A DNA stretch of 64,000 nucleotides, taken from contig CM068842.1 in NCBI GenBank assembly GCA_028554795.2, positions 56,069,360-56,133,359 on the forward strand, given 5' to 3'. A model generated the notes under the pieces. The model was not told the DNA's origin. It saw only the letters and a list, made by a program, of their open reading frames with translations, and did no database searches. The DNA is from Sinohyriopsis cumingii. Lineage: Eukaryota > Mollusca > Bivalvia > Unionida > Unionidae. The translations under genes were made by a program, and so were the position numbers. Shown piece by piece: positions 3,354-61,612 of the stretch (positions are counted from its first letter, which is position 1; each line of letters opens with the position of its first letter).

Positions 3354-3432
3354 CTGAACTTTCATGTCTAAGAATTTCAAAGTCTTCATATCCATGTCTG
3401 TATTCTTTCTGCTCTGTTATTTGCCCTTTTAC
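3354..3432 (-). CDS. Host gene exon 12 (unrecognised protein)
   Basis: This 79-bp internal exon lies between 'ctgtccag' and 'GTAAAT' on the minus strand. It starts in phase 0, matching the end of exon 11, and ends one base into a codon. It encodes 26 residues beginning VKGQITEQKEYRHGY and ending EILRHESS, a charged segment. The 306-bp intron to exon 11 is the shortest in the chain. The next exon should begin with two codon-completing bases and was not found in the remaining 3.3 kb. The protein family is not recognised. Confidence 0.72.
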
Positions 3433-3738
3433 CTGGACAGAGAGAGGGGCAGAAGGATAAATAAAAATGTGAGAGTATGTGCTAAACAGTGTTTTATGGA
3501 CACTTCTTAGAAGATATAGTTTTTGGGAATTAAACAAATTTTAATTGTCAGTGAACTAATATGTATGGACATCTAAAGAGTGGATATTTTTCCACAGTCA
3601 AACAAAAACAATATATCTCCATCCTCTCTTGATCCATTATTCTTTCAAGTTTTCCTAAATTTGCTCCTTCTTCACTATTATAAGCTAACATAAATTACAG
3701 CAAGAGAATTTGACACAAATAAAAAAACAATCTAATAC

Positions 3739-3825
3739 CTTTGTGGCATCTGGCCGAGCTCTAAGTCTGGTCTGAGGTCGCTGAAAATCTTCCGGGAATG
3801 TGTCCTTCAGAGTCTTGATGAAGCC
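3739..3825 (-). CDS. Host gene exon 11 (unrecognised protein)
   Basis: This exon is 87 bp, exactly 29 codons, with acceptor 'gttcag' and donor 'GTATTAG'. It is phase 0 at both ends, so it joins exon 10 and exon 12 without a frame change. It encodes GFIKTLKDTFPEDFQRPQT followed by an Arg-rich RLRARPDATK. GC content and codon balance are clearly higher than in the flanking AT-rich intron. A loose likeness to one segment of the WASH-complex subunit WASHC4 was considered and not accepted, because the other exons do not match that protein. Confidence 0.85.
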
Positions 3826-4299
3826 CTGAACAAAGAAAACTAAATTAAATGTTGTTGAAATTAATTATAGGTAAATTTGTTTTAAAAACCCTTTTTATTT
3901 GGTACAGGTATGCATGAAGGTAGCTCTTTCATGATCTTTTGAAAGACATTTTTTTAAGTTAAGCTGAGAGGTGATGAATTTATCACACTGCATATTATAC
4001 AAGTTTAGACATTATGACAGTTATTGGAATGGTTCATATATTTTATGGCTACACATCTCTAGAAGGTAGGAACTATCTTCAGCAGTAACCACAGTCACAA
4101 CTGTTTTCAATGGCATGCACTAGCAACTAAAAAAAGAGACGTAGATGCTTAATTCTGTAATTCAGTTACAGGATGATGAATAATGTTTAAGACAGATCAT
4201 GTGACCATTCAAGCAGGGTTGAACACAGAAATATATGTGCATGTCTGGTGAGGGTTCCTCCAAATTTAAGCACCATTCCTTCCCAAAACCACTTCTAAC

Positions 4300-5870
4300 C
4301 AATATTATGAGTATGTTCTTTGCAGTGTTTTAACAAGAGTCTCTCTCTCAAAGGGACTGATGCTCTGTCTGAAAAGTATTTGCAGGAATTTCAAGACAAA
4401 ACCATTTCTTCTTTTTAACAGCTGAGTGCCAAAGCTATCTCTGATATTTTTGAGTAATACGATTTTCAAATTAGCATTTAAGGCCGTCATATTGGATGCA
4501 AGATTAATGTCATTTTTATTTAGAACAAACAAGACAGAAGAAGAAGACTTTTGGTGAAAATTCCATTTTGATATGACCATCCATTCATGAGAATTTGTGA
4601 CAAGATTTATAACCTTTCAGTGCTGCAGCCAAATTTTAGTTCCGGTCTGCATAATTTTCAATCAGGACCAACTAGATAGGCTAGCTGCCATAACAGACAC
4701 ACCTGATGTCAGATGGCACCATTTTCATTTAGTAACAACTAGACATCACACAAAGTTTTCTTGTGAAAACCTGATGTTGATATGACTTTTGATCTAGGAA
4801 GCACAGCAAGAAAATTTTCAAGATGGCCATTGTGGTGGTTATACTGGATAACAGATCAGAACAATTTTGAAGACCAGATTAACAGGAAAAAAATGTCTTT
4901 TAATGAAAAACCCATGTTGATATTGCACCATTCTGGTGGACAAGCAAAATGAGATTTTTAAAATGGCCACTGTGGTAGCCATACTGGATATCCAGGCAGC
5001 AACATTTTCATTTAGGACCAAGTAGACATCTTAAAAAGTCTTTTAGTGAAAACCGCATGCTGATATGACCATCCCTTCAGAAGGAGTAGCTATAAGAAGA
5101 TTTTTAAGATGGTCAATATGGCAGCCATATAGGACATCTGAAGGGAACCAGCCACATGCAGGACCAACAAGATATATGTTGATATGAATTTCCATTCACA
5201 AGAAAAAAGTGACAACAAGATTTCATTGATAGCCACTACAGAGGTTATACTTGAAGTCCAAATGGAAAATTTTTCATTTAGGTCCAATTAGACATCATGA
5301 AAAAGTCTTCTAGTGAAAGCCTATGTCAATATAACTTTCCATTCAGGAGAAGAAAGAATAACAAGATTTTCAAGATGGCTGCCATGGTGGCCATATTAGG
5401 TATCAGATCAACACCCTTTTTATTTAGGCAAAGCTAGAGACCATAAAAAGTCTTATAGCAAAAACGACATGTTAACATGACCATCCATTCAGGAGGTCTA
5501 GCAAGAATATAGTCAAGAGAGTTGCTTGGAGGCCATATTGGATATCTCAGCAGCCACATTTTTATTTAAGACTGACTATGGACCAACTAGACCTTAGGGT
5601 GAATGTGTATATAAAGCTTTATCTTGGTATTCAGGAGGAGTAGCAATAACAATTCTTTTTTCAAGATGGCCACTGTGGTGGCCATATTGGATTTGCAAAC
5701 AGCATCATTTTCATTTAGGACCAACTGGACCATGGGATGAATGTGTGTGTGAAGTTTAATGGCAATCCTCTAAGTATTTTAGAAGGAATATTAATAACAA
5801 ACTTGTGCTAAAAGATAGATAAAAAGCCAAGCCATAAACTCCTATGGTCTATAACTAGTAGTCCTAAACA
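4300..5870 (+). repeat. R1 dispersed repeat, long copy with head, core and tail
   Basis: The head 'tttttaacagctgagtgcc' followed by 'atctctgatatttttgagtaa' opens the copy. About ten degenerate ~130-bp core units follow, with 'caagatggccactgtggtgg' and 'cattttcatttaggaccaa' as landmarks. The tail 'gggatgaatgtgtgtgtgaa' and 'agccataaactcctatggtc' closes it. The same head recurs near 12,930 and 49,675, which shows the copy is modular. Confidence 0.75.
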
Positions 5871-6648
5871 AGAGAGTCAAGTGTGTATGCAACAACTCAT
5901 TTGGCTGACATCTGCCAAATAGAAAAGTGCAAGAGCAGATGGCCAAGTATCCCAAGTTAGTACAATCAGTAAGGGGACTTTATCCTCTCCATATTCACTC
6001 TGCAATAATGCTCTGCAGTGGTGATATAAATACCTACAAATCACCACCACACCTTGGCAGACACACCAATGGCATCTCCCTGTTCAGGGACTGGTTGACA
6101 TTACTGACTGAAATTTGAACAGCCAATGAATAAAAGCCACCCATGGAAAGACTGAAATGTCAAGAGTGATTTACAATTGAATATCATTTAAGAGTCAGTC
6201 ATCTTTATTTGAGTTATATATTTAGACAATAAAAAAAGAATAATTTATAAAGTTTGTATGTTCAGCAGATGTACACATATCTTCAAAAAGTGTACTTGTC
6301 AACCAACATGTATCTAGGATGATATTTTGCAACCATTTGTGATAAAAAAAAATTGCTACAATGATAATTAATACAAAATAGTACAGTTCAAATTAAAGAT
6401 AAAATTTGTTTAATAATGCTTTCTTTTTTCTGTAACAATAATATCTCAAAGATATATGTATGTAATGCCCTGCATATTCACACAGATCTTTTATTAAAGA
6501 AAGAATGCATCTTCTTTTCTTCACAAAATATAGACATTCAGTATAAGAATGAATTTGACTTCATCATCATCTTTATATTTCCAGAGCAACACAAGGTCAG
6601 TTGGCTTCTAGCAATTATTTTTGGTTTTGTATATTGATGCAACAACTG

Positions 6649-6696
<48 letters not shown>

Positions 6697-7700
6697 TTTA
6701 TTAAGTTTTAATTACCTTCAATAAAGCTGTGATTGTATGTCAGAAGAAACCATACATTATGTTAATGAGAATTCATGCATAAGGGTAACTCAATGAACTT
6801 GTGCGATTTTAATTCACTTCAGTCAGAAGTGACTGTGATTTTTATTAACAAAGTTTATCGATCTTTTCACTACTTGGAGTACCATATCATTGATATTTTA
6901 TATGATCATTAAAAAAGGTAGCTGGGCACTCAGAAATAAGACAAGAAAGATAATGACTGCTATTACAGGAGACAAGAAAAGCAAATTGTTCCCACATGAC
7001 ATAACAATGTAGATAATAATGTAGATGAATCAGTGCCTCTCTCTTTCTCTGAACCTCTCAAGAGCATGGTTGCAGGGGTCATAAAAAAATAAACCATGCC
7101 CATTTTATTGATACCATGTCCACTCCATGGTGATCATTGGATGTAACTTTGTGAGAAAGTGTTGTGTGCAGAGCTATTCTCTGTGAGAAGCCATAGTAAC
7201 TCAATCAGGATGAACAGAGATATGGTGGAACATTTTTTTAAATCCTCTCCATTCTCTCTCCACTAGAACAGCTATGCATGGAGAAGTGAGCAGTACTGCA
7301 GATTGCTTTCTGTTAATATTTCATAAAAAAATGTGTTAATTGGTCCTAAAAGAGGTTGGTTTTTATTTTAGTTATCTTTAGCCATATTTTGTGGCAAATC
7401 AGCGTTATTGAATAAAACTCGAAAAAATGTTTAAATCTGTATGCAATATTCAAATTTGATTTTTGCAAAGTCATATACATGGCACTCATACTGGGGCACT
7501 TTTTCTTTTAACAAATTTACCCCAACATAATTACATTTTAGCTGGATGACCATATCCACCCTGCAAAAAGATATACCTGAACTTGCCCACCAATAAGAAA
7601 ATTGAAACTTGTAACAAACAACACAGAACAAACAAACATAATTTGAGTGCTGCTTTCCTCTTCAGCTGCATTTTTGTCTTCTTTTGCAAGAGCCTTGTAC
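5871..7700. other. Intronic sequence without recognised features except one microsatellite
   Basis: No exon with matching splice signals and phase was seen, and no repeat shared with the rest of the window. The (TA)n tract at 6,651-6,694 is listed separately. Confidence 0.4.
6651..6694. repeat. (TA)n microsatellite
   Basis: Uninterrupted TA dinucleotides, about 22 repeats. Confidence 0.98.
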
Positions 7701-7724
7701 ATGACTTGAGATTCACATTTCAAA

Positions 7725-7904
7725 AGACGGGGTATGCAGTAGGTGGTTTGTTATGGTGCATAACGTGCCAGCAGATCTGGGTCTATGTTGTTTGTTTTAC
7801 TGATTCCTCCTAAACAAACTGCACAGACCTACATCTGCCAGTACATTATGTATTGACCGAAATGGGTCTGTGCAGCCTGCAGTTGGACTCTACTTATAAG
7901 CAAG
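7725..7904. repeat. R3 short repeat with inverted ends (MITE-like)
   Basis: This ~180-bp element has related copies at about 18,283-18,455 and 27,440-27,610. Shared words are 'cagcagatctgggtct' and 'gcagttggactctacttata'. In the 27.4 kb copy the two ends are inverted versions of each other. Here it directly abuts the left end of the pogo element. Confidence 0.65.
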
Positions 7905-8137
7905 TACCGTATTTCATGTTATTTTTCGTACACAAAAAAATAATTATTAATTTCAGTGTACAGAAAATTATATGTAAAATAATTATCATTTTGTGGTAAT
8001 GACCGTGTATGAAAAATAAAGGGATCATACCCGGACAAGGCATGCAGAACACATGACACTTGACAACCTGACGTACAAAACTTATATACAAATCCAGTCT
8101 CATTCTGCTCTCAAATCAAGAATCTGGTTGTTGTTAT

Positions 8138-8140
<3 letters not shown>

Positions 8141-8199
<59 letters not shown>
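8141..8199. repeat. (GA)n microsatellite inside the pogo element
   Basis: About 29 uninterrupted AG dinucleotides, located between the left inverted end and the transposase remnant. Confidence 0.98.
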
Positions 8200-8202
<3 letters not shown>

Positions 8203-8799: not shown

Positions 8800-10370
8800 G
8801 GAGCTGCATTGTCACTCCTTATGTACTCTCTACCATTTATTACGTTTGAAAGGCCAGTAACTTTGAAGCTACTGATTATCATGTCCTTTTCTTCTTTAAT
8901 TCTTCAGTCAATCATCTGCTGCTTTGAAGGGACTGGAATTTTTTTGGTTGCCTCCTCACCAGCTTCCCTGGTTGCAATATTCTGGAAGCCTGGTCCTTCA
9001 TGTACGTTGACCATTCATTCTGCAGCAGTCCTTTGAAAGGCTTATTTAGATATACATCCAGTAGCTGCAGTTTACTTGTGCATTCACCGGACATTACTGC
9101 CATTGTTGTTCTGGATTTTTCAATGGAGTTTTTTTTACTCCATCAGTAAAATGGCCATGGAATGAATCCAACACTAGGAGAGAAGGTGCACACTTCGTGT
9201 GTACTTTCCAAACTTCAACAATATAATCCAACATTAGGTGTTCATCCATCCATGCTTTTTGTTGACCTTTCACTACAACTCCCTTTGGGATTTTTTGAAT
9301 TTTTAAGTTTCTTTTTCCCGAAAGATTATCATGGGTGGCAACAAGTCACCAGATGCCAGGCATGTCAATACACAAGTTAAATGGCACTTGTCACTGCCGG
9401 TACCTCTAATACGTACCTCTCTTGTTCCGACTTTATCAATTATCTTCCCTGGAACCAAGTCAAAATACACTGGCGTTTCATCCATATTTCCAATTAAATG
9501 TTCATCAAATTCCTCATCCTCCCACAGCCTTCTTGTATATCTGGTAAAGCAGTCTATTTTTTCCTCTTGATATCGAGGTAGTTTTTGAGATATTGAAGTT
9601 CTACATCTCAGTGCAAGTCCATTTCGCTTGAAAAATCCATCAACCCATCCTAATGAGCCCTGAAACTTTAGGTTTTACTCGTGAATAACTGCAGTAGTAT
9701 AATTTTGTAACATCTCAGTTGTTACAGGTACGTGATGGTCCTGCATACAGAGTAACCAAGATAAAATTTCCTGCTCCTTCTCTTGCGAATATGTCAAGGG
9801 TTGGCTGGCACCTGGGATAGATCCTTTCTTTGTCCTTTGAATATTTTTCGAGAAATCCATTTTTATCCAGCTTGATAAAGTACTTGGTGTAAGGTGGTAC
9901 TTTGCAGCTATGGGTCTAATTCCACATAGTTTTGCCTCCACAACAATTCTTATTTTATCGTTAATGTCCCATTTCTTATACTGTCCTCTTACTGGTGACT
10001 TTGCAGGAAACTGGCTTATATCCCTCATATCTTGGCTGTAGTCCAGCTTGTCTACTGCAAGCTCAGGAAATTTTTCAGCAACAATGGGCACCTTTTCAAT
10101 AGTATCTTTTGGTATGATGGTATTATCTGCTGCAACAATATCTCATCTGTGCAGTTCAGCATCATCTTTTACATTGGCAATCTTGGTAACTGAAGTAACA
10201 GACAGGTGATGTACTTCACCTTTGTCTTTTCTGGGCCATCCAGGTCCAATTTTCTGCCTTTCATTTGGTGGTTCAGTGCATTTAGGTGGTGGTGGGATAA
10301 AAGTCTCTCCCTTTGGCAGGGGTTTGAAGAAACCTAATAATGAAGACATGCCCAAGCACGAACAGACCAA
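8800..10370 (-). pseudogene. Decayed pogo/Tigger-like transposase
   Basis: From the 5' side, a segment at 10,091-9,675 carries a psq-type helix-turn-helix (KYHLTPSTLSSWIK) and the start of a CENP-B-like DNA-binding region. A DDE domain follows, with the first Asp in GNMDETPVYFD near 9,480. The second Asp is in LLVLDSFHGHF near 9,150, and the third in LQLLDVYLNKPFK near 9,050. A typical pogo C-terminus, MIISSFKVTGLSN, lies near 8,880. The frame is broken: a stop follows LHR near 10,140, another follows FREKET near 9,303, and frame changes occur near 9,100-9,300. It is not functional as it stands. The DDD triad fits pogo rather than classical mariner. Confidence 0.88.
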
Positions 10371-10924: not shown

Positions 10925-11017
10925 CTTTACTGTAGGACAATGAATCAAACTATCTTCAGCTAATTCCATTGCCAGAGGAACCATATACAGATTCATGTTT
11001 TTCAAGGTATGCAGGGT
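10925..11017 (-). CDS. Host gene exon 10 (unrecognised protein)
   Basis: This exon is 93 bp, exactly 31 codons, with acceptor 'tacttttag' and donor 'GTAAAC'-like. It is phase 0 at both ends. It encodes TLHTLKNMNLYMVPLAMELA then EDSLIHCPTVK, a Leu/Met-rich segment that looks helical. The other two frames contain stops, so the frame is fixed. It joins exon 9 upstream and exon 11 downstream in phase. The exon sits only about 95 bp beyond the right end of the pogo element. Confidence 0.85.
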
Positions 11018-14130: not shown

Positions 14131-14700
14131 AAGAAGTAGTGATAGCAAAATTTTCAAAATGGTTGGTGTGGTGCCCATATGAGGGTGTCAGATCAGCACC
14201 ATCTTAACATCATACCAAATCTTTCAATCAAAACCGCATGGCAATATTGCTTTACAATCAGGAGAAGCAGTGATAACAAGATTTTAAAATGGCTAAAACA
14301 ATGACAAGATTTTAAAATGGCTATCTTGGCAACTATATTTGATGTAAGATCACTACTATTTTCAAGCAGGACCAGCTAGACAGGATAAGAAGTCTTCTAT
14401 TTAAAGCTAATATCAATATGACTTCCCATCAAGTAGGATTAGTAATAACAAAGATTTTCAAGCTGACCACAGCAACACCCATACTTGTTGTCTGAGCAGC
14501 ACCATTTTCATTTAGGATCATATAGACAGTGGGATGAATGTTTGTGTAAAGGTTCGTGTCAATCCTTCAAGAGGTTTAGATGGAGTAGTGACAACAAACT
14601 AGTGCTAATGCATAGACAGACACAGGGTAATAAAAGATAGATGATAGATGGTGGACAATGGGCCATCCCATAAGCTCTAATGGTCTATGACCAGTAGAGC
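14130..14700 (+). repeat. R1 dispersed repeat, core and tail
   Basis: Core units are followed by the tail 'gggatgaatgtttgtgtaaa' and 'ggccatcccataagctctaa', then 'tggtctatgaccagtagagc'. The tail ends about 25 bp from the donor of exon 9. Confidence 0.75.
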
Positions 14701-17979: not shown

Positions 17980-18056
17980 AGATCATCTTCAAACAGATTG
18001 TTGATAGAATTTCTGTAGCCAAATAATAATTCCCTGATACCACCATAGGCTTCGGT
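17980..18056 (-). CDS. Host gene exon 8 (unrecognised protein)
   Basis: This 77-bp exon has a strong polypyrimidine acceptor 'ctttttctttgcag' and consensus donor 'GTAAGT'. It begins in phase 0, matching exon 7, and ends after two bases of a codon that exon 9 completes. It encodes TEAYGGIRELLFGYRNSINN then LFEDDL. Direct joining to exon 10 would hit a stop within five codons, which is why exon 9 is needed. Family not recognised. Confidence 0.85.
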
Positions 18057-18786: not shown

Positions 18787-19070
18787 CATTTCCACATATT
18801 TTTAAGTAACAAAAACTATCAAAAAAACTAATAAATGTAGGGCACAAACATAATTTTAAGTGTATGTTTAAATTCAGTATTGGATATTATTTATGATATA
18901 ATATTATTAATATCATGCACTCAAATTTAAATAATTGTCATTATCAAGGAGCTATTTTTATATCAATGGAAAAAAATGCAATAACTCCAACAAAGAAACA
19001 ACGATCTTTTAGAAAAGGGAACAAATAATATACAGTAGATGATATTATTATTTCTTCTTTGATTAATATT

Positions 19071-21556
19071 ATTATAAGATGTACTAATATTTGGCCATGG
19101 TTGGGCTTCCACCGTTTTGAGTAGTATGGTTATAAGATATACTAGTACTTGGACATAGTTGGGCTTCCACCTCTGTGAGTAGTATGATTATAAGACATAC
19201 TAATACTTGGCCATGGTTGGGCTTCCACCATTTTGAGTAGTATGGTTATAAGATATACTAGTACTTGGCCATGGATGGGCTTCTGCCTCTTTGAGTAGTA
19301 TGGTTATAAGATATACTAGTACTTGGACATAGTTGGGCTTCCACCTCTGTGAGTAGTATGATTATAAGACATACTAATACTTGGCCATGGTTGGGCTTCC
19401 ACCTCTTTGAGGAGTAATGTTATAAGATATACTAGTACTTAGACATGGTTGGGCTTCCACTTCTTTGTTTGGCATGGTCATAAGATATACTAGCACTTGG
19501 CCATGGATAGGCTTCCACCTCTTTGTTAGGCATGGTGATAAGATATACTAGTACTTGGCCATGGATGGGCTTCCACCTCTTTGAGTAGTATGGTTATAAG
19601 ACATACTAGTACTTGGACATGGTTGGGCTTCCACCTCTTTGAGTAGTATGGTTATAAGATATATTAGTACTTGGCCATGGATGGGCTTCCACTTCTTTAA
19701 GTAGTATGTTATAAGATATACTAGTACTTGGCCATGATTGGACTTCCACTTCTTTGTTTGGCATGGTTATAAGATATACTAGTACTTGGCCATGGATGGG
19801 ATTCCACCTCTTTGAGTAGTATGATTATAAGATATTCTAGTACTTGGCCATGGATGGGCTTCCACTTCTTTAAGTAGTATGTTATAAGATATACTAGTAC
19901 TTGGCCATGATTGGACTTCCACTTCTTTCTTTGGCATGGTGATAAGATATACTAATACCTGGCCATGGTTGGGGTTCCACTTCTTTGTTTGGCATGGTTA
20001 TAAGATATTCTAGTACTTGGGCATGGATGGGCTTCCACCTCTTTGTTTGGCATGGTGATAAGATATACTAGTACTTGGCCATGGTTGGACCTCCACCACT
20101 TTGACTATTATGGTTATAAGATATACTAGTATTTGGCCATGGATAGGCTTCCACCTCTTTGAGTAGTATGGTTATATACTAATATTTGGCCATGGTTGGG
20201 CTTCCACCTCTTTGAGTAGTATGGTTATAAGATATATTAATACTTGGCCATGTTTGGGCTTCCACCTCTTTGAGGAGTATGGTTATAAGATATACTAGTA
20301 CTTGGACGTGGTTGGGCTTCCATTTCTTTGTTTGGCATGGTTATAAGATATACTAGTACTTGGCCATGGATAGGCTTCCACCTCTTTGAGTAGCATGGTT
20401 ATAAGATATACTAGTGCTAGGACATGGTTGGACTTCCACCTCTTTTAGTAGTATGGTTACAAGATATACTAGTACTTAGACATGGTTGGGCTTCCACCTC
20501 TTTGAGTAGTATGGTTATAAGATATATTAGTACTTGGCCATGGATGGGCTTCCACTTCTTTGAGTAGTATGGTTATAAGATATACTAGTACTTGGCCATA
20601 GATGGGCTTAGACTTCTTTCTTTGGCATGGTGATGGGATATATTAATACATGGCCATGGTTGGGCTTCCACTTCTTTGTTTGGCATGGTTATAAGATATA
20701 TTAATACTTGGCCATGGTTGGGCTTCCACTTCTTTGTTTGGCATGGTTATAAGATATATTAATACTTGGCCATGGTTGGGCTTCCACTTCTTTCTTTGGC
20801 ATGGTGATAAGATATATTAATACTTGGCCATGGTTGGGCTTCCACTTCTTTGTTTGGCATGGTTATAAGATATACTAGTACATGGCCATGGATGGGCTTC
20901 CACCTCTTTGTTTGGCATGGTGATAAGATATACTAGTACTTGGCCATGGTTGGACCTCCACATCTTTGAGTAGTATGGTTATAAGATATACCAGTATCTG
21001 GCCGTGGATGGGCTTCCATCTCTTTGAGTAGTATGGTTATATACTAATATTTGGCCATGGTTGGGATTCCACCTCTTTGTGTAGTATGGTTTATAAGATA
21101 TACTAGTACTTGGCCATGGATGGGCTTCCAAATCTTTGTTTGGCATGGTGATAAGATATACTAGTACTTGGCCATGGTTGGACCTCCACCTCTTTGAGTA
21201 GTTTGGTTATAAGATATACTAGTAATTGGCCATGGATGGGCTTCCACCTCTTTGAGTAGTATGGTTATAAGATATACTAGTATCTGGCCATGGATGGGCT
21301 TCCACCTCTTTGAGTAGAATGGTTATATACTAATATTTGGCCATGGTTGGGATTCCACCTCTTTGTGTAGTATGGTTATAAGATATACTAGTACTTGGCC
21401 ATGGATGGGCTTACACTCCTTTCTTTGGCATGGTGATAAGATATACTAGTATTTGGCAAGGGTTGGGCTTCCACTTCTTTGTTTGGCATGGTGATAAGAT
21501 ATACTAATACTTGGCCATGGATGGGCTTCCACCTCTTTGAGTAGTATGGCTATAAA
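19071..21556. repeat. 58-bp satellite array, about 43 units
   Basis: The unit carries 'gatatactagtacttggcca', 'tggatgggcttccacctc' and 'tttgagtagtatggttataa'. Two subtypes are interleaved: one ends GAGTAGTATGGTTAT and the other GTTTGGCATGGTGAT. Occasional units lack the 'agat' of 'ataagatata', giving 'gttatatactaatatttggc'. The array lies in the 15.9-kb intron between exons 7 and 8. Confidence 0.95.
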
Positions 21557-22084
21557 ATAAAGGTGCTGCAGCTTTTGAGGCCAACAGGACAGCTGCTCCA
21601 TGACCTTGACCTTCGAGCTCTTTGACATTTAATTGTGTGTTATATTCTTTCCACACTGGTTTTAAAGGTAAAATCTGATGAAATACTGACATTTAAATAA
21701 ATGATCATCCAAAAGCTGATGCCAGATGGCTAGATGGATGGAAGGACATTATGACTGCTACATCTTGCCTTATGTGACAAGCATTTAAATATCACTCTGT
21801 ATTTTTAAGACAAACAGCTAAGAAATTATAATTTACAAAATAGTTTATGACTGATCAGTTATAAACATAGTCTAAGGGATTTTTAACTGAGAGAACTCAT
21901 CTGAGGCCAGGTAAACATATAATTAAGAAAAAAGAAATTTTCAGCTGCCAAACATAAACAAAAATAAAAGGTTTTCAATGGAGAACTGCCAAACAGAACA
22001 TGTGTAACATAAAAAGAAAAGAAAAACATATAGATAACAAATTGTTGTAAAGTAAATTACATCAAACTACTTACCCAGAAATGC

Positions 22085-22839: not shown

Positions 22840-23150
22840 GATTTGAATTTTTAATGTAGCTTTTAATATTTTTTCAGTCATATCACTACGATGTCTGCAA
22901 TGTGGCAGTTTTTAGTGATGTCTAGCACTGGAGCATCATGCTGCAGACATGTAGCATGATGTCCCACCCAGTCACATTATCCTGACACCAGGCCGACCAG
23001 TCCTAACACTAACCTCTTAATGCTGAGTGCCAAGTGAGGCAGCTGTTAGTACCATTTTTGTAAGTATTTGGTATGACTCGTCCTGGCATCGAACCCACAA
23101 CCTCCAGCATTCGAGGAGGATGCTCTAACCACTTGGCCACCGGAGCAGTG
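22840..23150 (-). repeat. tRNA-derived SINE, family S1
   Basis: Read on the minus strand, the head shows an A box in GTGGCCAAGTGGTTAGAGC and a B box in GTGGGTTCGATGCC. The body carries 'tcggcctggtgtcaggataa' and 'atgtgactgggtgggacatc', shared with copies at 27.7 and 37.0 kb. This is the best-preserved head of the three. Confidence 0.88.
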
Positions 23151-27655: not shown

Positions 27656-27669
27656 TTATATATGCAATT

Positions 27670-27895
27670 TGTCAGTTTATAGTGCTGTCTATCACTATGG
27701 CATCATGCCACAGACATGCAGCATGATGTTCCACCCAGTCACATTATCCTGACACCAGGCCAACTAGGTCTAACACTAACCTATTAATACTGAGCACCAG
27801 GTGAGGCAGCAGCTAGTACCATTTTTATGTCTTTGGAATGACCTCCTTCATCCAAGGTGGATGTTCGAACCATTTAGACCACTGCTGTGATCCAT
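27670..27895 (-). repeat. tRNA-derived SINE, family S1, second copy
   Basis: Matches the 22.8-kb copy in the body ('acccagtcacattatcctga', 'caccaggccaactaggtcta'). The tRNA-like head is more decayed. Confidence 0.8.
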
Positions 27896-29233: not shown

Positions 29234-31605
29234 TTGTCAATAAAAAGCTTTGAAGTCTTTATGGAGCAAATAGTAAATGAACCCACCAGAGTAACATCTA
29301 CCTCTAAAACACTTATAGCTCATATTTATACCAATACAAAAGAAAATGTTTTGGAAGTAATGGTTCCAAAGATTGGTATAAGTGACCACTTTGCAATTTT
29401 TCTAACACATAAAGTCAATGGCAAATCAACAAAAAATAATATCCATAAATCCATTACTTATAGATCCTTTCAAAATTTTGATCCTGTTAAATTCCTAGAA
29501 GATCTGAAACAGATTCCATGGAATACAGTCCAAATCTTTGAAGATATTGATGATGTTTTAGATACTTGGACAGATCTGTTCATCAGTATAGTGAACAAGC
29601 ATGCAACTTTAAAAACACACAGGATAAAGAAAGCCCACCAGCCAGGCTGGATCTCCCCAGATATTTTAGAAGTAATAAAGCAAAGAGACCAACTAAAATC
29701 AGTAGGAAATCAAACTGAATATAGAGTTTGGAGGAATAAAGTTAATAAAATGATACATCAAGCCAAACAAGCACACTATAAAAAAGTGCTTGATGAAAAC
29801 CAAAATAATCCCAAAGCTATTTGGAAAGTGTTTACAGGGTTTGGTGCAGGCAAATGTAAGAGTAAAGCTGAAATTTTATCCCTCAATCATGAGGGCATTT
29901 ACACTGATAATCCAGCTGACATCTCAAATATTTTTAACAACATTTTTGTTCAAATTGCTGAAAAACTTAAAGAACCCAGAACTTCATCTGATCATACGGA
30001 ACTCAAACATTTTTATGCTAAAAAACTGCCAACAATATAAAGTTTGAAATTCCTGAAATGAGTCCTGAATTTGTGTTGAAATACATAACAAAAATGGATG
30101 ATTGTAAAGCTACAGGACTTGATATGATTGGACCAAGGCTACTAAAGGTAGCTGCACCTGCAATTGTAGAGAGTATAACTTTCATTTGCAATGAAAGTAT
30201 TAGGTCTAATAAATTTCCACAAACATGGAAAACTGCCAAGGTTATACCATTGCATAAAGCAGGAACAAAAGATGATGTAAATAACTACAGACCCATCTCT
30301 ATCCTTCCTTGTCTCTCCAAATTACTAGAAAAACATGTACATGATTCTTTTCTCAACTATTTAAACACTTACAATGTTATTCATGATAATCAGTCTGGCT
30401 TTCGCCAGAATCGCTCCTGTGAAACTGCACTTGTATCTTTGATTGATAATGGCTGAAAGCATTAGATCAAGGAGAAATGGTAGGCACTATTATGGTTGAT
30501 TTTCGTAAAGCTTTTGATCTTGTAGACCATGAAATTTTGCTTGAAAAACTAAAAATCTATCAATGCAATGAAAACTCCCTAAACTGGTTTACTTCTTACT
30601 TAACCGATAGAGTGCAAAAAGTATCTTTAAATGGTCAACTTTCTGTAAGTAAAAATATTAATTGTGGAGTACCACAAGGCTCTATCCTTGGGCCTCTCTT
30701 ATTCATACTATTTATCAATGATTTACCTCTTAAGATTGGAACTTCAATTTCTTCCACTGACCTTTATGCAGATGATATTACACTGTCTGAGATTGGTAAA
30801 ACCAAAACAGTACTTGAAAATAACTTATAAGATGCTCTCAACAGACTTCAAGTATGGTACAAGGAAAACAGTATGATCATAAATAAAGAAAAAATGAAAA
30901 CCCTACTAGTTACAACACAACAAAAACGAGCAAGGCTAGATAGCGACAAACTCCAGGTTCTAATCGACAATGTGAGCCTCAATATGACCTCTCAAGATAA
31001 AATTCTTGGTGTATTCATGGATAACAATCTTACTTGGTCTATTCACATTAAACATATTTCAAGAAAGGTTAACTCTTATCTTTGGCTACTGAGGAAAATC
31101 AAAACAAACATTCCTCTTCAGTATAGGGTCATCTTTTATAAAAGTTTTATTCAGCCATATCTGGACTACTGTAATGCAATTTGGGGTAATACCTCTAATT
31201 CAAACATAACAACACTTTTAAGACTCCAAAAGAGGGCTTGCCATTTAATTCTAGATCAAAGTATAGACAATTTTCAGGATGCAATGAATAATATAAAGAT
31301 TTTAACAATACATGAAAGAATATTTCTTAGAAAGGCCAAATTGATGTATAAAGTATCCAGAAAAGACATTCCTGTCTATCTAAGCAATATCTTTCACCAA
31401 AGAGATGCTGATGGCACTCCAAATTTAAGGTCCATAAGAAGAAAAAATTACATTATACCAAGGCCAAAGAAGGAATTGTTTAAGAAAAGTTTTCAATATA
31501 CTGGTCCACTGGTATGGAACAACATTCCCAGTGACATAAGGCAGGCTCCTAGCATTTCATCTTTTCACAATCAATGTCTTAAATGGATGAAATCTTTAGA
31601 AAATT
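29234..31605 (+). pseudogene. LINE endonuclease/reverse transcriptase, broken
   Basis: In order, the endonuclease end is seen in QIVNEPTRVTSTSKTLIAHI and GISDHFAIFLT. RT blocks are NNYRPISILPCLSKLLEK, NQSGFRQNRSCETAL, VPQGSILGPLLFILFINDL, and the catalytic box LYADDITL near 30,765. The RT C-terminus runs to the stop at 31,606. Stops follow LPTI near 30,038, DNG near 30,455 and ENNL near 30,828, and there are frame changes between the pieces. The last 244-codon piece, 30,873-31,607, is intact. Five-prime truncation plus these lesions make it inactive. Confidence 0.92.
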
Positions 31606-31904
31606 GAACAGTTCTAGTACAAAAAATACCGCCTGCTTTTCTGTAATTTTACATCATTTTCATAGCTGAATATTTCAATGTAGGATTATATTTTATGTTT
31701 TATATATATGTTTATGTTTTCACTGATGCCTGTGAATGTGTTCCAGGCTTGATACTTTGAATTTTAAAATTACTTAATTATTTAGTGTCACGCCAGACTC
31801 TTCACATCATGTTGTATATACTGCATATATTGTACATAACAGATAGAAGGCCTCAAGGTAGATTAGTTCTGTAACTAATTGAGTTACCTTCTCTAAATAA
31901 AGTC

Positions 31905-33969: not shown

Positions 33970-34093
33970 CTCTGCCACAGCCTGGATGATAGCTCTTAGA
34001 CCTTTGTTCTGTTCTGTTAGGTGGTGAACTCTGCCTGCAGTGCTATGAAGCAATCTGTACAACTCCACAAACAGCTTCTTGTCAAAGGCATGC
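33970..34093 (-). CDS. Host gene exon 7 (unrecognised protein)
   Basis: This 124-bp exon has acceptor 'ttcttcag' and donor 'GTATTT'. One base completes the Arg codon left by exon 6, then 41 codons end in phase 0, matching exon 8. It encodes HAFDKKLFVELYRLLHSTAG then RVHHLTEQNKGLRAIIQAVA E. The Leu/Ile/Val spacing suggests amphipathic helices, perhaps of an alpha-helical repeat domain; that is inference. The hAT MITE lies 124 bp beyond its donor. Confidence 0.87.
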
Positions 34094-36372: not shown

Positions 36373-36465
36373 CTGTCTAGGAGAGCCAGGGTGATCATAC
36401 ACTGGACTATATCAAACAGTTCTACCTCTGTCCTGTAACTTGCTATTTTCCTCTGTAGGTTGGAC
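36373..36465 (-). CDS. Host gene exon 6 (unrecognised protein)
   Basis: This 93-bp exon has acceptor 'taatcatcag' and donor 'GTCAGT'. It starts with one base completing the Lys codon of exon 5 and ends two bases into an Arg codon completed by exon 7. It encodes SNLQRKIASYRTEVELFDIV then QCMITLALLD, likely helical. The flanking intron is far more AT-rich. Confidence 0.86.
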
Positions 36466-36929: not shown

Positions 36930-37370
36930 TGACCTACGATGACTAAGAAACTGCAGTCATTTGTAAGCTTGAAACCCTGTTTCTTTGAAATAAAGACCCA
37001 GAAGCAGGAGGTTGTGGGTTCGATCCCCAGCCGAGTCATATCAAAGACTTATTAAAAAGGATACTAACATATGATTCCTTAGGTGCTAAGCATTGAGAGG
37101 TTTGTGATAGGACTGGTCGGCCTGGTGTCAGGATAATGTGACTGGGTGGGACATCATGCTATATGTCTGTGACATGATGCCCCAGTGCTAGACATCACTA
37201 TAAACTGCCTCACTGCAGACATTGTAGTAATATGAATGACAAATTGTTAAAGCTACGTTAAAAATCCTTTTCATACATACACTCTTTGAAATAAAATGTT
37301 ACTCATCAAAGGTTCTGCTAACAGACACTTTTTTAAGAAAGTAAATAATGTAGCTAAACAATGTTTTCTA
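36930..37370 (+). repeat. R6 low-copy repeat interrupted by a SINE
   Basis: The flanks 36,930-36,994 and 37,283-37,370 together match an uninterrupted copy at about 56,625-56,760. Shared words are 'atgactaagaaactg', 'tttctttgaaataaa/tttctttaaaataaaa' and 'ttactcatcaaaggttctg/ttactcatcacatgttctg'. The interruption is exactly the S1 SINE. Confidence 0.82.
36995..37282 (+). repeat. tRNA-derived SINE, family S1, with 13-bp target duplication
   Basis: It is flanked by perfect TCTTTGAAATAAA repeats at 36,982-36,994 and 37,283-37,295. It keeps the B box (GTGGGTTCGATCCCC) but lacks the A box, so it is 5'-truncated. The body 'actggtcggcctggtgtcag' matches the other two S1 copies. Confidence 0.92.
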
Positions 37371-39621: not shown

Positions 39622-39862
39622 TTGCTGTTGTTTTGGAGTTTAATGCCATTTCTATCCATGATGGCCAGCATAATTGGTGGAAGAAGAACCTGGAGAAACC
39701 CCTGTAAGAACCACCAGCTCACAGGAAGTTTCTGGCAAGCTTTCTTACATACTCACAATGGATAAGCCTGAGAGCTGAACCCATGTGGACAAAGGTGAGA
39801 TGGCAGTGACAGGTAAAGGTGAGCATTTTTGACCACTCAGCTACCAGGGGCCCCTACATGTC
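39622..39862 (-). repeat. tRNA-derived SINE, family S2, old copy
   Basis: Inverted copy beginning 'gttgctgttgttttggagtt' and containing 'ggtggaagaagaacctggag' and 'gtgagatggcagtgacaggt'. It ends 'ctcagctaccaggggcccct'. It is clearly more diverged than the 48.4, 55.9 and 60.0 kb copies. Confidence 0.82.
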
Positions 39863-43718: not shown

Positions 43719-43971
43719 TTTATTGGTGAAGTAATCTGCCATGCATAGGGTTCACTGTGTTCATCATCCCCAAATCGGAAGCCATCTATGCGGACTTTAC
43801 GAGGCTTGATTTTTTCCAGATGACTATGAACATGTCTTTGAAGACTGCTAAGTTCCTCCTCCTGCAGATCTGTCAGTGGCTGATTCCTACTCCTATTACC
43901 CTGAGTACGACTCAGTCCTGTTGCCAAGCGACTAGGAATTGCAGATCTCTTACTGGCTGCTGTTCCTGGAA
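43719..43971 (-). CDS. Host gene exon 5 (unrecognised protein)
   Basis: The longest exon, 253 bp, has acceptor 'atcttacag' and consensus donor 'GTGAGC'. Two bases complete the Val codon opened by exon 4, 83 codons follow, and it ends two bases into a Lys codon completed by exon 6. The first part is basic and Ser/Thr/Arg-rich (KRSAIPSRLATGLSRTQGNR), probably a flexible linker. A charged, likely helical stretch (LQEEELSSLQRHVHSHLEKI) follows, then KPRKVRIDGFRFGDDEHSEP and YAWQ. Reading on past the donor meets TGA at once, so splicing is required. Confidence 0.88.
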
Positions 43972-46224: not shown

Positions 46225-47195
46225 CAAATAAGAGTACATTAACTGCTAGGATGACATGGGACAAATGGGAGTATATGAACCTCCAGGATGGCATGGACAA
46301 CTGGGAGCACATTAACCTCCAGGATGGCATGGGACAACTAAGAATAAATTAACCTCCACGATGGCATGGAACAAATGGGAGCACATTTATCTCCAGGATG
46401 GCATGGGACAACTGAGAGTATATTACTCTCCACGATGGCATGGGACAACTGGGAGTGCATTTATCTCCAGGATGGCATGGACAACTGGGAGCACATTTAT
46501 CTCCAGGATGGCATGGGACAACTCGAAGCACGTTAATCTCATGGATGGCATGGGACAACTGGGAGCACATTAATCTCCACGATGGCATAGGACAACTGGG
46601 AGCATATTAATCTCCAGGATGGCATGGGACAACTGGGAGTATAATAATCTCCAGGATGGCATGGTACAACTGGGAGCACATTAATCTCCAGGATTACTTG
46701 GGACAAATGAGAGTATATTATTCTCCAGGATGGCATGGGACAACTGGGAGCACATTTATCTCCAGGATGGCATGGGACAACTGGGAGCACATTTATCTCC
46801 AGGATGGCATGGGACAACTGGGAGTATATTAATCTCCAGGATGGCATGGGAAAACTGGGAGCACATTTATCTCCAGGAAGGCATGGGACAACTGGAATCA
46901 TATTAATCACCAGGATGCCATGGAACAACTGGAAGCACTTTAATGTCATGGATGGCATTGGACAACTGGGAGTATATTAATCTCCAGGATGGCATGGGAC
47001 AACTGGGAGCACATTTATCTCCAGGATGGCATGGGACAACTGGGAGTATATTAATCTCCAGGATGGCATGGGACAACTGGGAACACATCTATCTCCAGGA
47101 TGGCATGGGACAACTGAGAGTATATTATTCTCCAGGATGGCATGGGACAAATGGGAGCATATTAATCTCCAGGATGGCATGGGACAACTGCCTGC
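46225..47195. repeat. Minisatellite, 37-bp unit, about 26 copies
   Basis: The unit is 'gggacaactgggagcacatt' followed by 'tatctccaggatggcat'. Two subtypes mix, one with 'gagcacatttatc' and one with 'gagtatattaatc'. Scattered copies lack a base ('catggacaact'). Frames on both strands are artefacts. Confidence 0.96.
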
Positions 47196-47882: not shown

Positions 47883-48025
47883 CTGACCCTGGGGGCTGGG
47901 CATCTGAAGTGCTGAAGACATCAATCTGTGGCTGGAAGATAGAGATGTAGACCTCTGCTTGAGATCTGTTCAGGAAGACACCTTCATGGAGGGATGCCAT
48001 CGGAAACTCACAGAAACTGGACATC
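47883..48025 (-). CDS. Host gene exon 4 (unrecognised protein)
   Basis: This 143-bp exon has acceptor 'tgttctacag' and donor 'GTGAGTAG'. One base completes the Ala codon of exon 3, 47 codons follow, and it ends one base into a Val codon completed by exon 5. It encodes MSSFCEFPMASLHEGVFLNR then SQAEVYISIFQPQIDVFSTS and DAQPPGS. The internal Met is not proposed as a start, because phase continues from exon 3. The beta-like EVYISIFQPQIDVF could be part of a C2- or Ig-like fold; this is only a guess. Confidence 0.88.
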
Positions 48026-48359: not shown

Positions 48360-48546
48360 ACATTAGTCCTGTTGTTGTTGTTGCTGTAGGGTTTAACGCT
48401 ATTTTTCAGCACAAGATAGGCTATACATGGCGGCCAGTATTAATGGTGGAGGAAGAACCCGGGATAACCCTGGAAACAACCACCAACCCACGAGAAGCTA
48501 CTGTCAAGCTTTCTCACATACCAACATAGGCCGACATTAGTCCTGT
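48360..48546 (-). repeat. tRNA-derived SINE, family S2, 5'-truncated, with perfect target duplication
   Basis: The inverted SINE body at 48,373-48,533 ('tgtagggtttaacgctattt', 'ggtggaggaagaacccggga') is flanked by perfect 13-bp repeats ACATTAGTCCTGT (48,360-48,372 and 48,534-48,546). The tRNA head is missing. A perfect duplication suggests fairly recent insertion. Confidence 0.93.
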
Positions 48547-51981: not shown

Positions 51982-52082
51982 GCCTCTTCCTTTATGTCTG
52001 AAACCACTTGAACAAAATTCAGTCCATACTGCTTTTCTCCCCGTACAAAGGAAGGAGTTTCAGGGTCCAGTTGGAAAATACA
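51982..52082 (-). CDS. Host gene exon 3 (unrecognised protein)
   Basis: This 101-bp exon has acceptor 'cctttttcag' and consensus donor 'GTAAGT'. It starts in phase 0, continuing exon 2, and ends two bases into an Ala codon completed by exon 4. It encodes CIFQLDPETPSFVRGEKQYG then LNFVQVVSDIKEEA. Charged and aromatic residues are well mixed, as in a folded domain. Intron to exon 2 is 651 bp. Confidence 0.88.
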
Positions 52083-52733: not shown

Positions 52734-52793
52734 CTCAACATATATGTACTTGTTTCCAATCACAGCATCACTCATTTTCTGCAGGAAATTGCC
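52734..52793 (-). CDS. Host gene exon 2 (unrecognised protein)
   Basis: This exon is 60 bp, exactly 20 codons, with acceptor 'tgttatag' and donor 'GTGAGT'. It is phase 0 at both ends. It encodes GNFLQKMSDAVIGNKYIYVE. It joins exon 3 in frame, and exon 1 also ends in phase 0. The 8.7-kb gap to exon 1 could hide further exons, so direct joining of 1 to 2 is not proven. Confidence 0.82.
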
Positions 52794-53930: not shown

Positions 53931-54054
53931 ATTACTCAAAATTAATTTGTATATGAACAAGTCACTGTGTGTATTAGCTCAATGAAGTAAAAAAAATGCC
54001 AGCAGTGACCTTTGGCTTCTCCCCATTGTCAATATAGGTCTGGTTTTCAAAACT

Positions 54055-54170: not shown

Positions 54171-54219
54171 ATGATTTCTTGATTCAGTTTAAAATATTTT
54201 CACCACTTTTCCCTTGGGA

Positions 54220-55947: not shown

Positions 55948-56207
55948 GTAGGGGCCCTGAGTGGCAGAGTAGTCTAAAGCGCTCTCTGTTACGGATCACT
56001 GCCATCTCACCTGTCTGCGTGAGTTCGAGTCTTGGATTCAGGTAATGTGGGTATGTGAGAAAGCTTGCCAGTAGCTTCTCGTGGGTCAGTGGTTCTTTCC
56101 GGGGTTTTCCCGGGTTCTTCCTCCACCATTAATACTGGCCGCCTTGTATGGCCAATCGTGTGCTGAAAAATGGCATTAAACCCTACAACAACAACAAATA
56201 CAACAAC
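55948..56207 (+). repeat. tRNA-derived SINE, family S2, full length
   Basis: The head has an A box (TGGCAGAGTAG) and a B box (GAGTTCGAGTC). The body carries 'agcttctcgtgggtcagtgg' and 'ctccaccattaatactggcc', and the end is 'aaaccctacaacaacaacaa' with a CAA-rich tail. It is flanked by AACAATGAAG at 55,938-55,947 and 56,208-56,217. This is the best reference copy of S2 in the window. Confidence 0.94.
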
Positions 56208-56219
56208 AACAATGAAGAT

Positions 56220-57255
56220 AACTGGACCAGATACAGATCTTTAAATATAAGTACTTATGGAAAATTGCATTTATGGCAAAACAAGAAAAAATGATTCTCT
56301 GAAAGTCAAATTCACACACTGCTGACAACTATTTATGTGTAAGCCACTAGCAATGTCTTTGCCATCCCTCCATCAACATGCTATTGTTTTATTTAATGCC
56401 ATACCTCCCTCAGCATGCAAAATTGGTATTTGCTGTCTGCCTTTTGTGAGCACTTTAAGTTTTTAAGCTGTGTCTTTGTTCAATATATGTAAAATGTTTG
56501 CTGAAACATCCTTAACGATCACAAGGATATTGTTTTGTACTACTACATATATGTACATGATTGAAAAACCAATAATGCAATCAGTTGTTCTGCCATGATT
56601 TGTACATATGATGCTTTTGTAGGATCTACAATGACTAAGAAACTGTGCAGTGGGTTACAAGCTTAAAAACATAGTTTCTTTAAAATAAAATATTACTCAT
56701 CACATGTTCTGTTAATGAATGTCTATTTTAAAAGTAAATATTGTAGTTTAAGAAATATTTTGTCAGCAAATCTACCTGATATGTAATTTTGTTTCATGTA
56801 CAATACAATTGATTCTCTTTCAACTTTGATTCTTGCTAGTGATGCCATATTCAAGCCGTAAATCATCCATACTATGATGGATTGGTAGGAGATGGCTTAC
56901 ATACAAAAATTTACAAGACCTGCCCTGTCCAAGTGCTGCATCAATATTTACTAATGCTGGAAGGGTTGTCCATAACTAAGCTGGAGTTCAACCAAGCTCT
57001 TGCTATGTGGGTTTAATCCTCAATTATTCAAGTCTCACAGTTTTAGGATTGGGGCAACAATGGAGGGTGCTAGGCAGGGTCTATTAGACAGTCTTATTCA
57101 GGTCTTAGGTAGGTGGCTGTCAGATGTCTTTAAGAAATATATCCACCTGAGCAGTAGAATTTCGAGTTTTTAATTCAGTGCTGATTTCGGTATTTCTACA
57201 TATTTTCATAGTACTTTTTACTCTTTGGTTCTGCTTTCCAAATTGTTCTGCTTTC
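56220..57255. other. Intronic sequence with an R6 copy
   Basis: The only supported feature is the uninterrupted R6 copy near 56,625-56,760, the empty-site counterpart of 36.9-37.4 kb. Confidence 0.5.
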
Positions 57256-57257
57256 AG

Positions 57258-57800
57258 GTTTCATGGGTGCACAGACTGATACAGCCATCCACATCATATG
57301 GGCACTGCACTTCATATGGATTCCTTGGAGAGCACTTCACTTCATATGGGTTCATTGAAGACATGACCATCTTACAACAATTCTTCCACTGGTGTTCTGT
57401 GACATGGAATACAAGCATTTCTGGATATTGTGTGCACATTTCAGCAGTCTCTTTGGGTGCATAGACTGATAGAGCCATCCATATCATATGGCACTGCACT
57501 TCTTATGAGTTCATTGAAGATGTGGCTATCTTGCAACACTTCGATCTCTCACTGGCATTCTGTGACATGGAATACAAATGTTTCTGGATATTGTGTGCAC
57601 ATTTTGGCAGTCTCTTTGTGTGCACAGACCAATAGAGCCATCCACATCATACAGCACTGCTCTGCACATGAGTTCATTGAAGAGCACTTCATATGCGTTC
57701 ATTGAAGATGCGACTATCTTACAACACTTCAGTCTCACAATGGCATTTTGTGACGTGGAATACAAATGTTTCTGGGTATTGTGTGCCCCCTGACTTCAGA
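57258..57800. repeat. ~165-190-bp tandem repeat, three and a half copies
   Basis: Units start with 'gggtgcatagactgatagag', 'ccatccacatcatatgg' and include 'gttctgtgacatggaataca' and 'tttctggatattgtgtgcac'. Unit length varies through internal duplication of 'gagcacttcatatg'. Overlapping frames on both strands are artefacts. Confidence 0.9.
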
Positions 57801-57959
57801 ATTCATGCAATTTTGACACAACATGTGCAGGAGTTTGTGTTTTTTCTGTGTCTGATAATACTAGATCAGTGTACAGAATTGGCTTCAAGTGTCTGTTGAA
57901 TTTTTGGCAATGTCAGGCTCATTCATGCTCTTTACATGAACTCTAAAATGTTTTGATTT

Positions 57960-58450
57960 ATTTCATCACATGTTGTCACACCCTGCTGCAGCTGCAGTAC
58001 TCCACAATTAAGCTTTACCTTGCAAGAATTAGATTCCATTACCTACAGGCTGGTCATAGTAACCCTTTTCAGGAGTCCGACAGGTTACAGTGTCATGGGA
58101 TAAAAAGGAACACCATTTCATAGTAAGCCTTGTATGTCTTTTCCATATGAAGAGGAAATTCCATTGTATTTAGATATTAGCTGGAGCTCGCCTTTGTGAT
58201 CCATTGTTCCTCATGGACAATGGATGTGCCTTAAGTAGAACTACTATCCTTATAGCTACCATTGAGGCTGTTTTGCTCAGGTTAGGTTATGATTCACATC
58301 TCTATAATGGACCCACCTTCCACATTTGGGCAGCTACTAGTGCTGCTAAGGCTGGAATTCCAGACCATATGATCCAACCTTGGGTCCTCTAATGTATATT
58401 GTAGATATATTCAGGTGCACACTGCTAGAGTTAGCTTTGTGTAGAGGCAG
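57960..58450 (+). mobile_element. Tyrosine-recombinase element fossil (DIRS/Ngaro- or Crypton-like)
   Basis: Translated similarity shows the core-binding part of a tyrosine recombinase followed by the catalytic part, including an Ala/Thr-rich AATSAAKAGIPDHMIQ motif typical of these elements. It is broken, with several breaks, and old. No reverse transcriptase or gag-like part was seen next to it. Family is given as a group because no other part is left to decide. Confidence 0.75.
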
Positions 58451-58994
58451 ATGTCACGGCATGTGCCTCACTTGTCGGTTCACACTTGTGTCGATCAATG
58501 CACTATTCCACTTTTTTACTTAGTGATACCATCATACAAATTGGAACACTTCATAGACGTTGTATAGCTATGCCAGTCATTCATTTTCACATCCTTTGCT
58601 ACACTGTCATTTCAGCTGTATCTTCTATTAGTGGACATTTGAATTCCTAACTGGTTATCTAATACATATATCTAATATTGATACCTTTAAGCACACTAGG
58701 ATTATCATGTGGTTCAAAACCTAGTTGATGTATTTTCCATGTTATTGCATTCTCAATCATTATTATCTTTATCTATCCTTACATTCCTTAAATTGGGGAT
58801 CTTCATTACAGTCGCATTTTTCCATAATCACATGGCTCCCTTTACTTCGTCTGGGCCATTGCCAAGTTTCATGCATTCACAACTTTGCTTTTGAACCCCA
58901 ATTTGTGTCAGTACTTAAATGTACTCAACTATTATGCCCATATACTTTATACCCACTTCCGATGGTACAAGTATGGAGTATAGGCTGGTGTTTG

Positions 58995-59262
58995 TTATCA
59001 TAGCAATCCTCAGGATCAGACTTATCAAGTTTCGGTTATCAGTGTCCCTAATACCTCATATCAGCCACTTGCAGCTCCACATACAGGTATTGGACACTCT
59101 TCACAACCCTACAAACTCCCCCAAGTCTCTCTTCCTGAGGTATTCCTATAGAACAAATTCAGAGCTCGGCTGGTGCAGTGTGCTGTGAAAGGATTTGCCC
59201 CCATTATGCAAATGATTATTTATATTTACAATAAAGTTTATACTGAACCTATGTATTGCATG
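58995..59262 (+). repeat. ~265-bp direct repeat, copy 1
   Basis: Contains 'gcaatcctcaggatcagact', 'ccccaagtctctcttcctga' and 'gatttgcccccattatgc', ending near 'aataaagtttatactgaacc'. About 90 percent like 59,690-59,953 by eye. It lies downstream of the tyrosine-recombinase fossil. Confidence 0.9.
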
Positions 59263-59689
59263 TTTTTTAAATTACAATTTAATTGATAAAAAGTAGTTTA
59301 AGTTATACACAGTGCATCCTTCTCAGGCCCTTTGCTGGGCCCCTCTTTTACTACTATGGATTCTCTGCCCAGACATGATGTCATTGCAGCCAATATGTTA
59401 AAAAGCTTGTAACTAAATTTAGATATTTTGTCATGTTGAACCAGTTAGATGACTGAGTTGGAGCATGTGATCAAACATTGTGTCAGTTAGGGTGTTGTTC
59501 ATATAGCAAATGATACACCTGTAGAGATGCATTCCTTTCAGTGCCGATGCTGCATTTAATCTTGAACATTATTTGCAGAAAGAACCGCCTGCCTCCCCTT
59601 CTTCCACCATGTTGTTTATTTGAGACATTTCTTGCATAGCGTTCCAGCTGTCCTGGGGGCCCTCTGTCAAATCGACTAATGTTTATTAA

Positions 59690-59953
59690 CATGGCAATCC
59701 TCAGGATCAGACTTATCAAGCTTCGGTTATCAGTGTCCCTATATACCTCGTATCAGCCCCTTGCAGCTCCACATAAAGGCGTCGGACACTCTTCACAATC
59801 CTACAAACTCCACAAGTCTCTCTTCCTGAGGTATTCCTATAGAACAAATTCAGAGCTCAACTGGTGCAGTGTGCTGTGACAGGATTTGCCCCCATTATGC
59901 CAAAGATTATTTATATTTACAATAAAGTTTATACTGAATCTATGTATTGTGTG
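59690..59953 (+). repeat. ~265-bp direct repeat, copy 2
   Basis: Partner of 58,995-59,262. The 430 bp between the two are not repeated. Such repeats downstream of a tyrosine recombinase could be the end repeats of that element, as in Ngaro-type layouts; inference only. Confidence 0.88.
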
Positions 59954-60008
59954 TTATTTAAAATAATAAGTTTAAAGAAATGCTTAAATAAAGCACCTTT
60001 TTCTAATG

Positions 60009-60256
60009 TTGTTGTTGTAGGGTTTAACACCATTTTTCAGCACATAATAGGCTATACATGGCAGCCAGTATAAATGGTGGAGGAAGAACATGGAAAAACA
60101 CCAGAAAGAACCACTGACCTACGAGAAGCTACAGCCAAGCTTTCTCACATACCCACTCTAGCCAAACTCGAGACTCAAACCCACACAGACATAGGTGAGA
60201 TGGCAGTGATCCATAATGGTGAATGCTTTAGACCATTCAGCCCCTCAGGGCCCCTC
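60009..60256 (-). repeat. tRNA-derived SINE, family S2, near full length
   Basis: Inverted copy starting 'gttgttgttgtagggtttaa' and including 'ggtggaggaagaacatggaa' and 'gctttctcacatacccactc'. It ends with the tRNA-like head 'cattcagcccctcagggccc'. Confidence 0.9.
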
Positions 60257-60369
60257 CTTTTATATGTAAATAATAGTATCTATGGATGCTATTGCTGTTG
60301 ACAGTGATATGCCAACCTTTGAATTTCACTCCTATTTATACTCTTTGGAAAATAGTTATGTGATATACT

Positions 60370-60555
60370 TTTGACAAATCAATGCTTGTTCAGGATGCCA
60401 AATAGGCTGGACTGTGCCAAACTGTGATGTAATTTTGACCAATCACTGCTTGTCCAGTATGCCAAACAGGCTGGACTGTACCAAACTGTGATGTAAGTTT
60501 GACCAATCACTGCTTGTCCAGTATGCCAAACAGGCTGGACTGTGCCAAACAGACA
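60370..60555. repeat. 64-bp tandem repeat, three copies
   Basis: Units carry 'gaccaatcactgcttgtcca', 'gtatgccaaacaggctggac' and 'tgtgccaaactgtgatgtaa' at 64-bp spacing. Confidence 0.95.
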
Positions 60556-61526
60556 CCCTACAAAATGTGACAGAACTGAGGGTTATCACAGAACCGAATT
60601 AGCACCCCTTGTCCATTTAAAGTCAATCAGTAACAAATATATAAACATTTTGTAATATGTCCTGTCCATCAAATATCAATGCTGTTTAAGTCATAATCAA
60701 GTCCACCAGGTATGGGTGAAGAGTAAACAAGTACCGATGAACACTGACAACATTGAAAATACACTGACTAGCATAAAAAATGAAGTACACAATGTTAAAA
60801 GTTCCAAACATACCGATACTTGTATAAAAGAAGGCCAGAATTTATGAACAGCACAGTGAAATTTAATGAAAATGTTAAATTTGACAAATGTAGTGTGTGG
60901 AACTGGTTATGTGATCAAGTGTAAGCCATCTTGGCTGCAGATGTATTTTGTAGTGTCATCTGATGAAGTCATCAAGCTTAATGCTATTTGAATGCTGATT
61001 GGATGGGAATTTAGGTGTGATAAACATGTTTCTGGGTATGATACATTCATGTGAACTAATGAAACATTTTTATGACTGATGCTGAGTGCAGTAGATTTAA
61101 GAAGCATCCCAATTGAGCCTGATATTATCAATTTGGATCATTTTATGCATATGTCTCCACATTAACTAATCTTGTTCATACAAGCTGACCTATTCAGCTG
61201 GATAAAAAAAAACTTATCTGCAGATGTCACCAGTAATTAGATTACCTCATCAACTATGTACAGATGTCACTTATAATCAAACTCACTCTAAAGACCAAAT
61301 TACCAAATTAATTTACAGTGGACATGAATCTAAAACATACAGAGACTTTGTTCCTAGTGTAATAACTTGCATACGGACACTTTGTTCCTAGTGTAATAAC
61401 TTGCAGGATTAACTATTCAATATCTTTATCTTCTCTTACAAGAGAATTCTTTTGCAAACTTCATAAGGTTGTGCTTTGGAATGTGTTTGTATGTGAGTAA
61501 TGCATATGGCCTCTATATACGTGTAC
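60556..61526. other. Intronic sequence, nothing recognised
   Basis: Only a short duplication of 'actttgttcctagtgtaata' near 61,345-61,400 was noted. Confidence 0.4.
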
Positions 61527-61612
61527 CTTGTTTTGCTGGATCATGGGAGCTTCCCAGAACACCTTTTCCCAAACCTCAGGATTTTCTGACTTAAGTGTTG
61601 GCATATTCACAC
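61527..61612 (-). CDS. Host gene exon 1 of the visible chain (unrecognised protein)
   Basis: This 86-bp exon has acceptor 'taatattacag' and donor 'GTACAC'. Two bases complete a codon from an upstream exon not found here, 28 codons follow, and it ends in phase 0. It encodes VNMPTLKSENPEVWEKVFWE then APMIQQNK, Trp-rich and well composed. The other frames contain stops. It is not the first exon of the gene, since it needs an upstream phase-1 donor. Confidence 0.84.

Follow-up and report, generated by a model that had tools for sequence, protein, structure and literature searches.

The window (the whole stretch of 64,000 nucleotides that was analysed here) most probably covers an inner stretch of a single large animal gene that lies on the minus strand and codes for protein. 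Ten of its exons, e1 to e8, e11 and e12 as numbered along that strand, are well supported. GT-AG introns, exons of 60 to 247 bp, mixed phases and long repeat-filled introns are common in large multi-exon animal genes, and no departure from this was seen; only the family here has no name. As it stands, the region is an ordinary gene fragment, and it shows how little of a repeat-rich 58 kb codes. Should the protein prove to fall outside all known families, an animal protein not yet described might be at hand.

Exon chain

Every open stretch bounded by AG and GT, on both strands, was taken as a candidate exon and scored by simple donor, acceptor and codon models, which were typed in from general knowledge without training on this species. 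On the minus strand, eleven exons emerged directly as a chain running from 61612 to 3354 (1,194 bp, open throughout), and one weak addition, e10, brings the number to twelve. AG acceptors and GT donors bound all twelve exons, the eleven of the direct chain and e10 besides. Together they comprise 1,287 bp of 58,259 bp, or 2.2% of the interval, in agreement with the 1.3 kb and less than 2.5% given by the first-pass annotation. The same annotation had described twelve phase-consistent exons; their ends, their junction phases (0, 0, 2, 1, 2, 2, 0, 2, 0, 0, 0) and their total length were rebuilt, the match of the inner exons being inferred from phases and total length, but e9 (a repeat copy) and e10 (background) did not withstand closer inspection.

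The chain begins with the internal exon e1 (61527-61612, 86 bp, phase 1 to 0), which starts directly after an AG and ends in AAG, ahead of GTACAC. It is followed by e2 (52734-52793, 60 bp, phase 0 to 0), e3 (51982-52082, 101 bp, phase 0 to 2), e4 (47883-48025, 143 bp, phase 2 to 1), which has strong splice sites, and e5 (43719-43965, 247 bp, phase 1 to 2), the longest and top-scoring exon. Further along lie e6 (36373-36465, 93 bp, phase 2 to 2), e7 (33970-34093, 124 bp, phase 2 to 0) and e8 (17980-18056, 77 bp, phase 0 to 2), the last with a strong acceptor. The doubtful e9 (14468-14564, phase 2 to 0) and the weak candidate e10 (10925-11017, 93 bp, phase 0 to 0) come before e11 (3739-3825, 87 bp, phase 0 to 0) and e12 (3354-3432, 79 bp, phase 0 to 1), an internal exon that ends at 3354, ahead of GTAAATAC. 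A single frame is open in 11 of the 12 exons, e8 being open in two, and GC content over the twelve is 0.52, 0.36 and 0.43 at the three codon positions.

The acceptor region of e1 is tandemly duplicated just upstream of the exon. At 61613-61686 the polypyrimidine tract, the AG and the first codons of e1 are present twice, 55 bases apart, with 87% identity over 45 bases. Splicing at the upstream acceptor copy leads to a stop in the frame of the chain, and thus it is the downstream acceptor that fits.

Chance tests

The coding signal exceeds the composition-matched background. The twelve-exon chain, put together by hand from the scored candidates, reaches 74.3 when each exon costs a penalty of 9; first-order resampling of the minus strand without tandem repeats (150 runs) gave a mean of 13.3, a standard deviation of 6.5 and a maximum of 32.1, and the real plus strand yields at most 32.3. 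There are 20 minus-strand candidates with a score of at least 10, ten of which are e1 to e8, e11 and e12. Candidates at this level also number 5.9 per shuffle on average and 10 on the plus strand, so that reaching 10 by itself lends a candidate modest support; the strength of the case rests in the higher-scoring e4, e5, e7 and e11, and in the chain.

Phase agreement was analysed with exon boundaries fixed regardless of phase, using the 20 minus-strand candidates with scores of at least 10, from which five were removed as repeat or transposon (56011, 59747, 59519, 9417 and 9812). Among the other 15 candidates, 8 of 14 neighbouring pairs agree in phase, which is weak (P = 0.058 for a one-in-three chance). 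The mismatches sit around 33663, 25517, 24625 and 10220, all scored minus-strand candidates outside the chain, and around a possible further exon, e14. Exons e1 to e7 follow one another directly in the list, and all 6 of their junctions agree (P = 0.0014); e11 and e12 agree as well. The agreement at all eleven junctions that had been claimed carries less weight than it suggests, since the junctions around e9 and e10 depend on a repeat copy and a background candidate.

Unguided dynamic programming at the same penalty of 9 arrived at an optimum of 140.1 with 22 exons, among them repeat and transposon ORFs. Exons e1, e9 and e10 are missing from this optimum, and its e8 has a different phase. When the penalty was lowered to 7, e8 and e9 appeared in the phases of the chain, with e1 and e10 still absent.

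Continuity between e7 and e11

The exon-like e9 is very probably a repeat copy that mimics a phase-consistent exon and not a true exon: at least 6 other places in the window match it with 74-86% identity, and it thereby illustrates how such a copy can pass as part of a gene. The dispersed repeat is about 100 bp long, and its further copies include those near 2049, 2205, 2469, 5700, 28097 and 50546, which share one orientation. As for e10, which was picked partly because it fitted the phase and length in the first-pass annotation, its score of 4.3 is at background, since about 56 candidates per shuffle reach 4 or higher; its peptide is protein-like by impression. The step from phase 2 at the end of e8 to phase 0 at the start of e11 requires one or more additional exons between the two, provided that they belong to one gene. 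Among the scored candidates, no phase-continuous, repeat-free and above-background exon linking e8 to e11 was found. With e9 taken as a repeat copy and e10 at background, the joining of e8 to e11 is an assumption. Three candidates lie in the 15.9 kb between e7 and e8, none of which matches in phase at its scored boundaries; with a different acceptor, 33663 does.

The interval might accordingly contain two genes, or a gene and unrelated pieces, with e1 to e7 (perhaps also e8) set apart from e11, e12 and two possible exons beyond them, e13 and e14, on the same strand. The gap between e8 and e11 and the long distance from e7 to e8 speak for such a division. However, one overlooked exon running from phase 2 to phase 0 would suffice to connect e8 and e11, e1 to e8 share their strand with e11 to e14, and neither an initial nor a terminal exon, nor any start/stop structure, came to light between e8 and e11 (without a dedicated search), so that we regard a division as rather unlikely. 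One minus-strand gene, as originally proposed, is the best account of e1 to e8 and of e11 and e12, but its continuity from e8 to e11 is assumed.

Far less probable still is that the exons are open by chance, or are remnants of transposons, and happen to lie beside consensus-like splice sites. Several high-scoring minus-strand candidates are of just this kind, including the top-scoring one (56011-56182, a repeat) and the transposon-like 9417 and 9812, and e9 is itself a repeat copy. Against this, the twelve-exon chain scores far above resampled sequence, and half of the 20 best minus-strand candidates are chain exons without another copy in the window: none was seen for e2 to e8, e11 or e12, and for e1 only the local duplicate.

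If the single large gene is accepted, the spliceosome would excise GT-AG introns whose lengths run from 0.3 to about 16 kb and whose contents include satellites, SINE-like copies, the broken LINE and the DNA-transposon-like stretch, joining the exons of 60 to 247 bp that remain. The product would most likely be a soluble intracellular protein, perhaps one that serves a larger assembly as a structural component or adaptor, and the gene would extend past both ends of the interval 3354-61612.

Extent of the gene

Both e1, which starts in phase 1, and e12, which ends in phase 1, are bounded by splice sites at the chain's ends, and thus both are internal exons and the number twelve does not describe the whole gene. 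Contrary to what the title of the first-pass annotation implies, the gene is incomplete here. Downstream on the minus strand, two pieces continue the chain in phase: e13 (1476-1597, phase 1 to 0) has a score of 8.0, which is background level, and e14 (1146-1288, phase 0 to 2), with a score of 14.5, may be a further exon. A possible e0 upstream of e1 (62310-62413, minus strand, phase 2 to 1) also matches in phase but is weak, with a score of 3.1. When joined, the fifteen pieces from e0 to e14 are open over 551 codons.

Predicted protein

Relatives were sought in prokaryotic, viral and plasmid collections, solved structures and family models. The eleven-exon chain and its pieces had no significant match in Pfam (best E 0.018, MlrA_helical, for a piece), and there was none in NCBIfam (best E 0.1), PDB sequences (best E 0.15) or PADLOC. 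Such matches as were obtained from Pfam, NCBIfam and PDB are under every curated cut-off shown, and are short, unrelated and mutually inconsistent. The family is thus unrecognised within these four libraries, as had been reported; that the protein is understudied or lineage-specific does not follow from a missing family match in the libraries searched. We think it doubtful that a large animal protein family lies behind these exons, one that has neither a Pfam model nor a solved relative and may be restricted to a single lineage of animals. Searches of IMG/VR with e5 to e8 returned 10 pattern matches with no relative among them, and a single 20-residue Microvirga match of e1 to e8 in GTDB contigs (E 3e-5, against candidates only) was taken as chance. 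No transposon domain was detected in the chain exons in the Pfam searches. The peptides were also compared by eye with known proteins, including MADD, the IP3 and ryanodine receptors, WASHC4, WASHC5, RALGAPB, UNC79, INPP4A, VEPH1, EPG5 and C9orf72, and no convincing resemblance was seen.

Exons e1 to e8 encode 310 residues without a hydrophobic membrane span. The best 19-residue mean hydropathy of 1.22, the three cysteines and the net charge of -5 suggest that the product is soluble and intracellular. The first part of the sequence is mixed and another part is helix-like; the Ser/Arg-rich stretch that separates them, in e5, looks like a flexible linker. Judged from composition, our best guess would be that the protein acts as an adaptor, or in a structural capacity, within a larger assembly.

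Repeats and surrounding sequence

The surroundings are an ordinary eukaryotic gene landscape. The top-scoring exon-like stretch of the minus strand, 56011-56182, was rejected because it is repetitive, recurring at 39663-39809, 48375-48527 and 60007-60212. Likewise, the candidates at 59747, 59519 and 59055 were discarded as copies of each other's surroundings, and those at 9417 and 9812 as lying inside a transposon-like stretch. In Pfam, 9812 matches HTH_28 at E 0.0035, under the cut-off, and 9417 has no match; the stretch is called transposon-like because the minus-strand peptide of 8960-10129 resembles transposases of pogo/Tigger-type DNA transposons.

Rfam gave 0 matches at the gathering score and ARAGORN 0 tRNA genes. 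A SINE-like repeat at 36980-37300, with copies at 22862-23108 and 27658-27827, carries the motif GGTTCGATCC, which resembles the B box of tRNA genes. Satellites are found at 46232-47190 (period 37) and, within the large intron between e7 and e8, at 19056-21559, where a 58-base unit is present in 43 copies. On the plus strand, 29234-31607 is a LINE-like element whose reverse transcriptase is split into several ORFs, with RVT_1 matches in 30058-30453 (E 2e-07) and 30477-30827 (E 1.2e-16).
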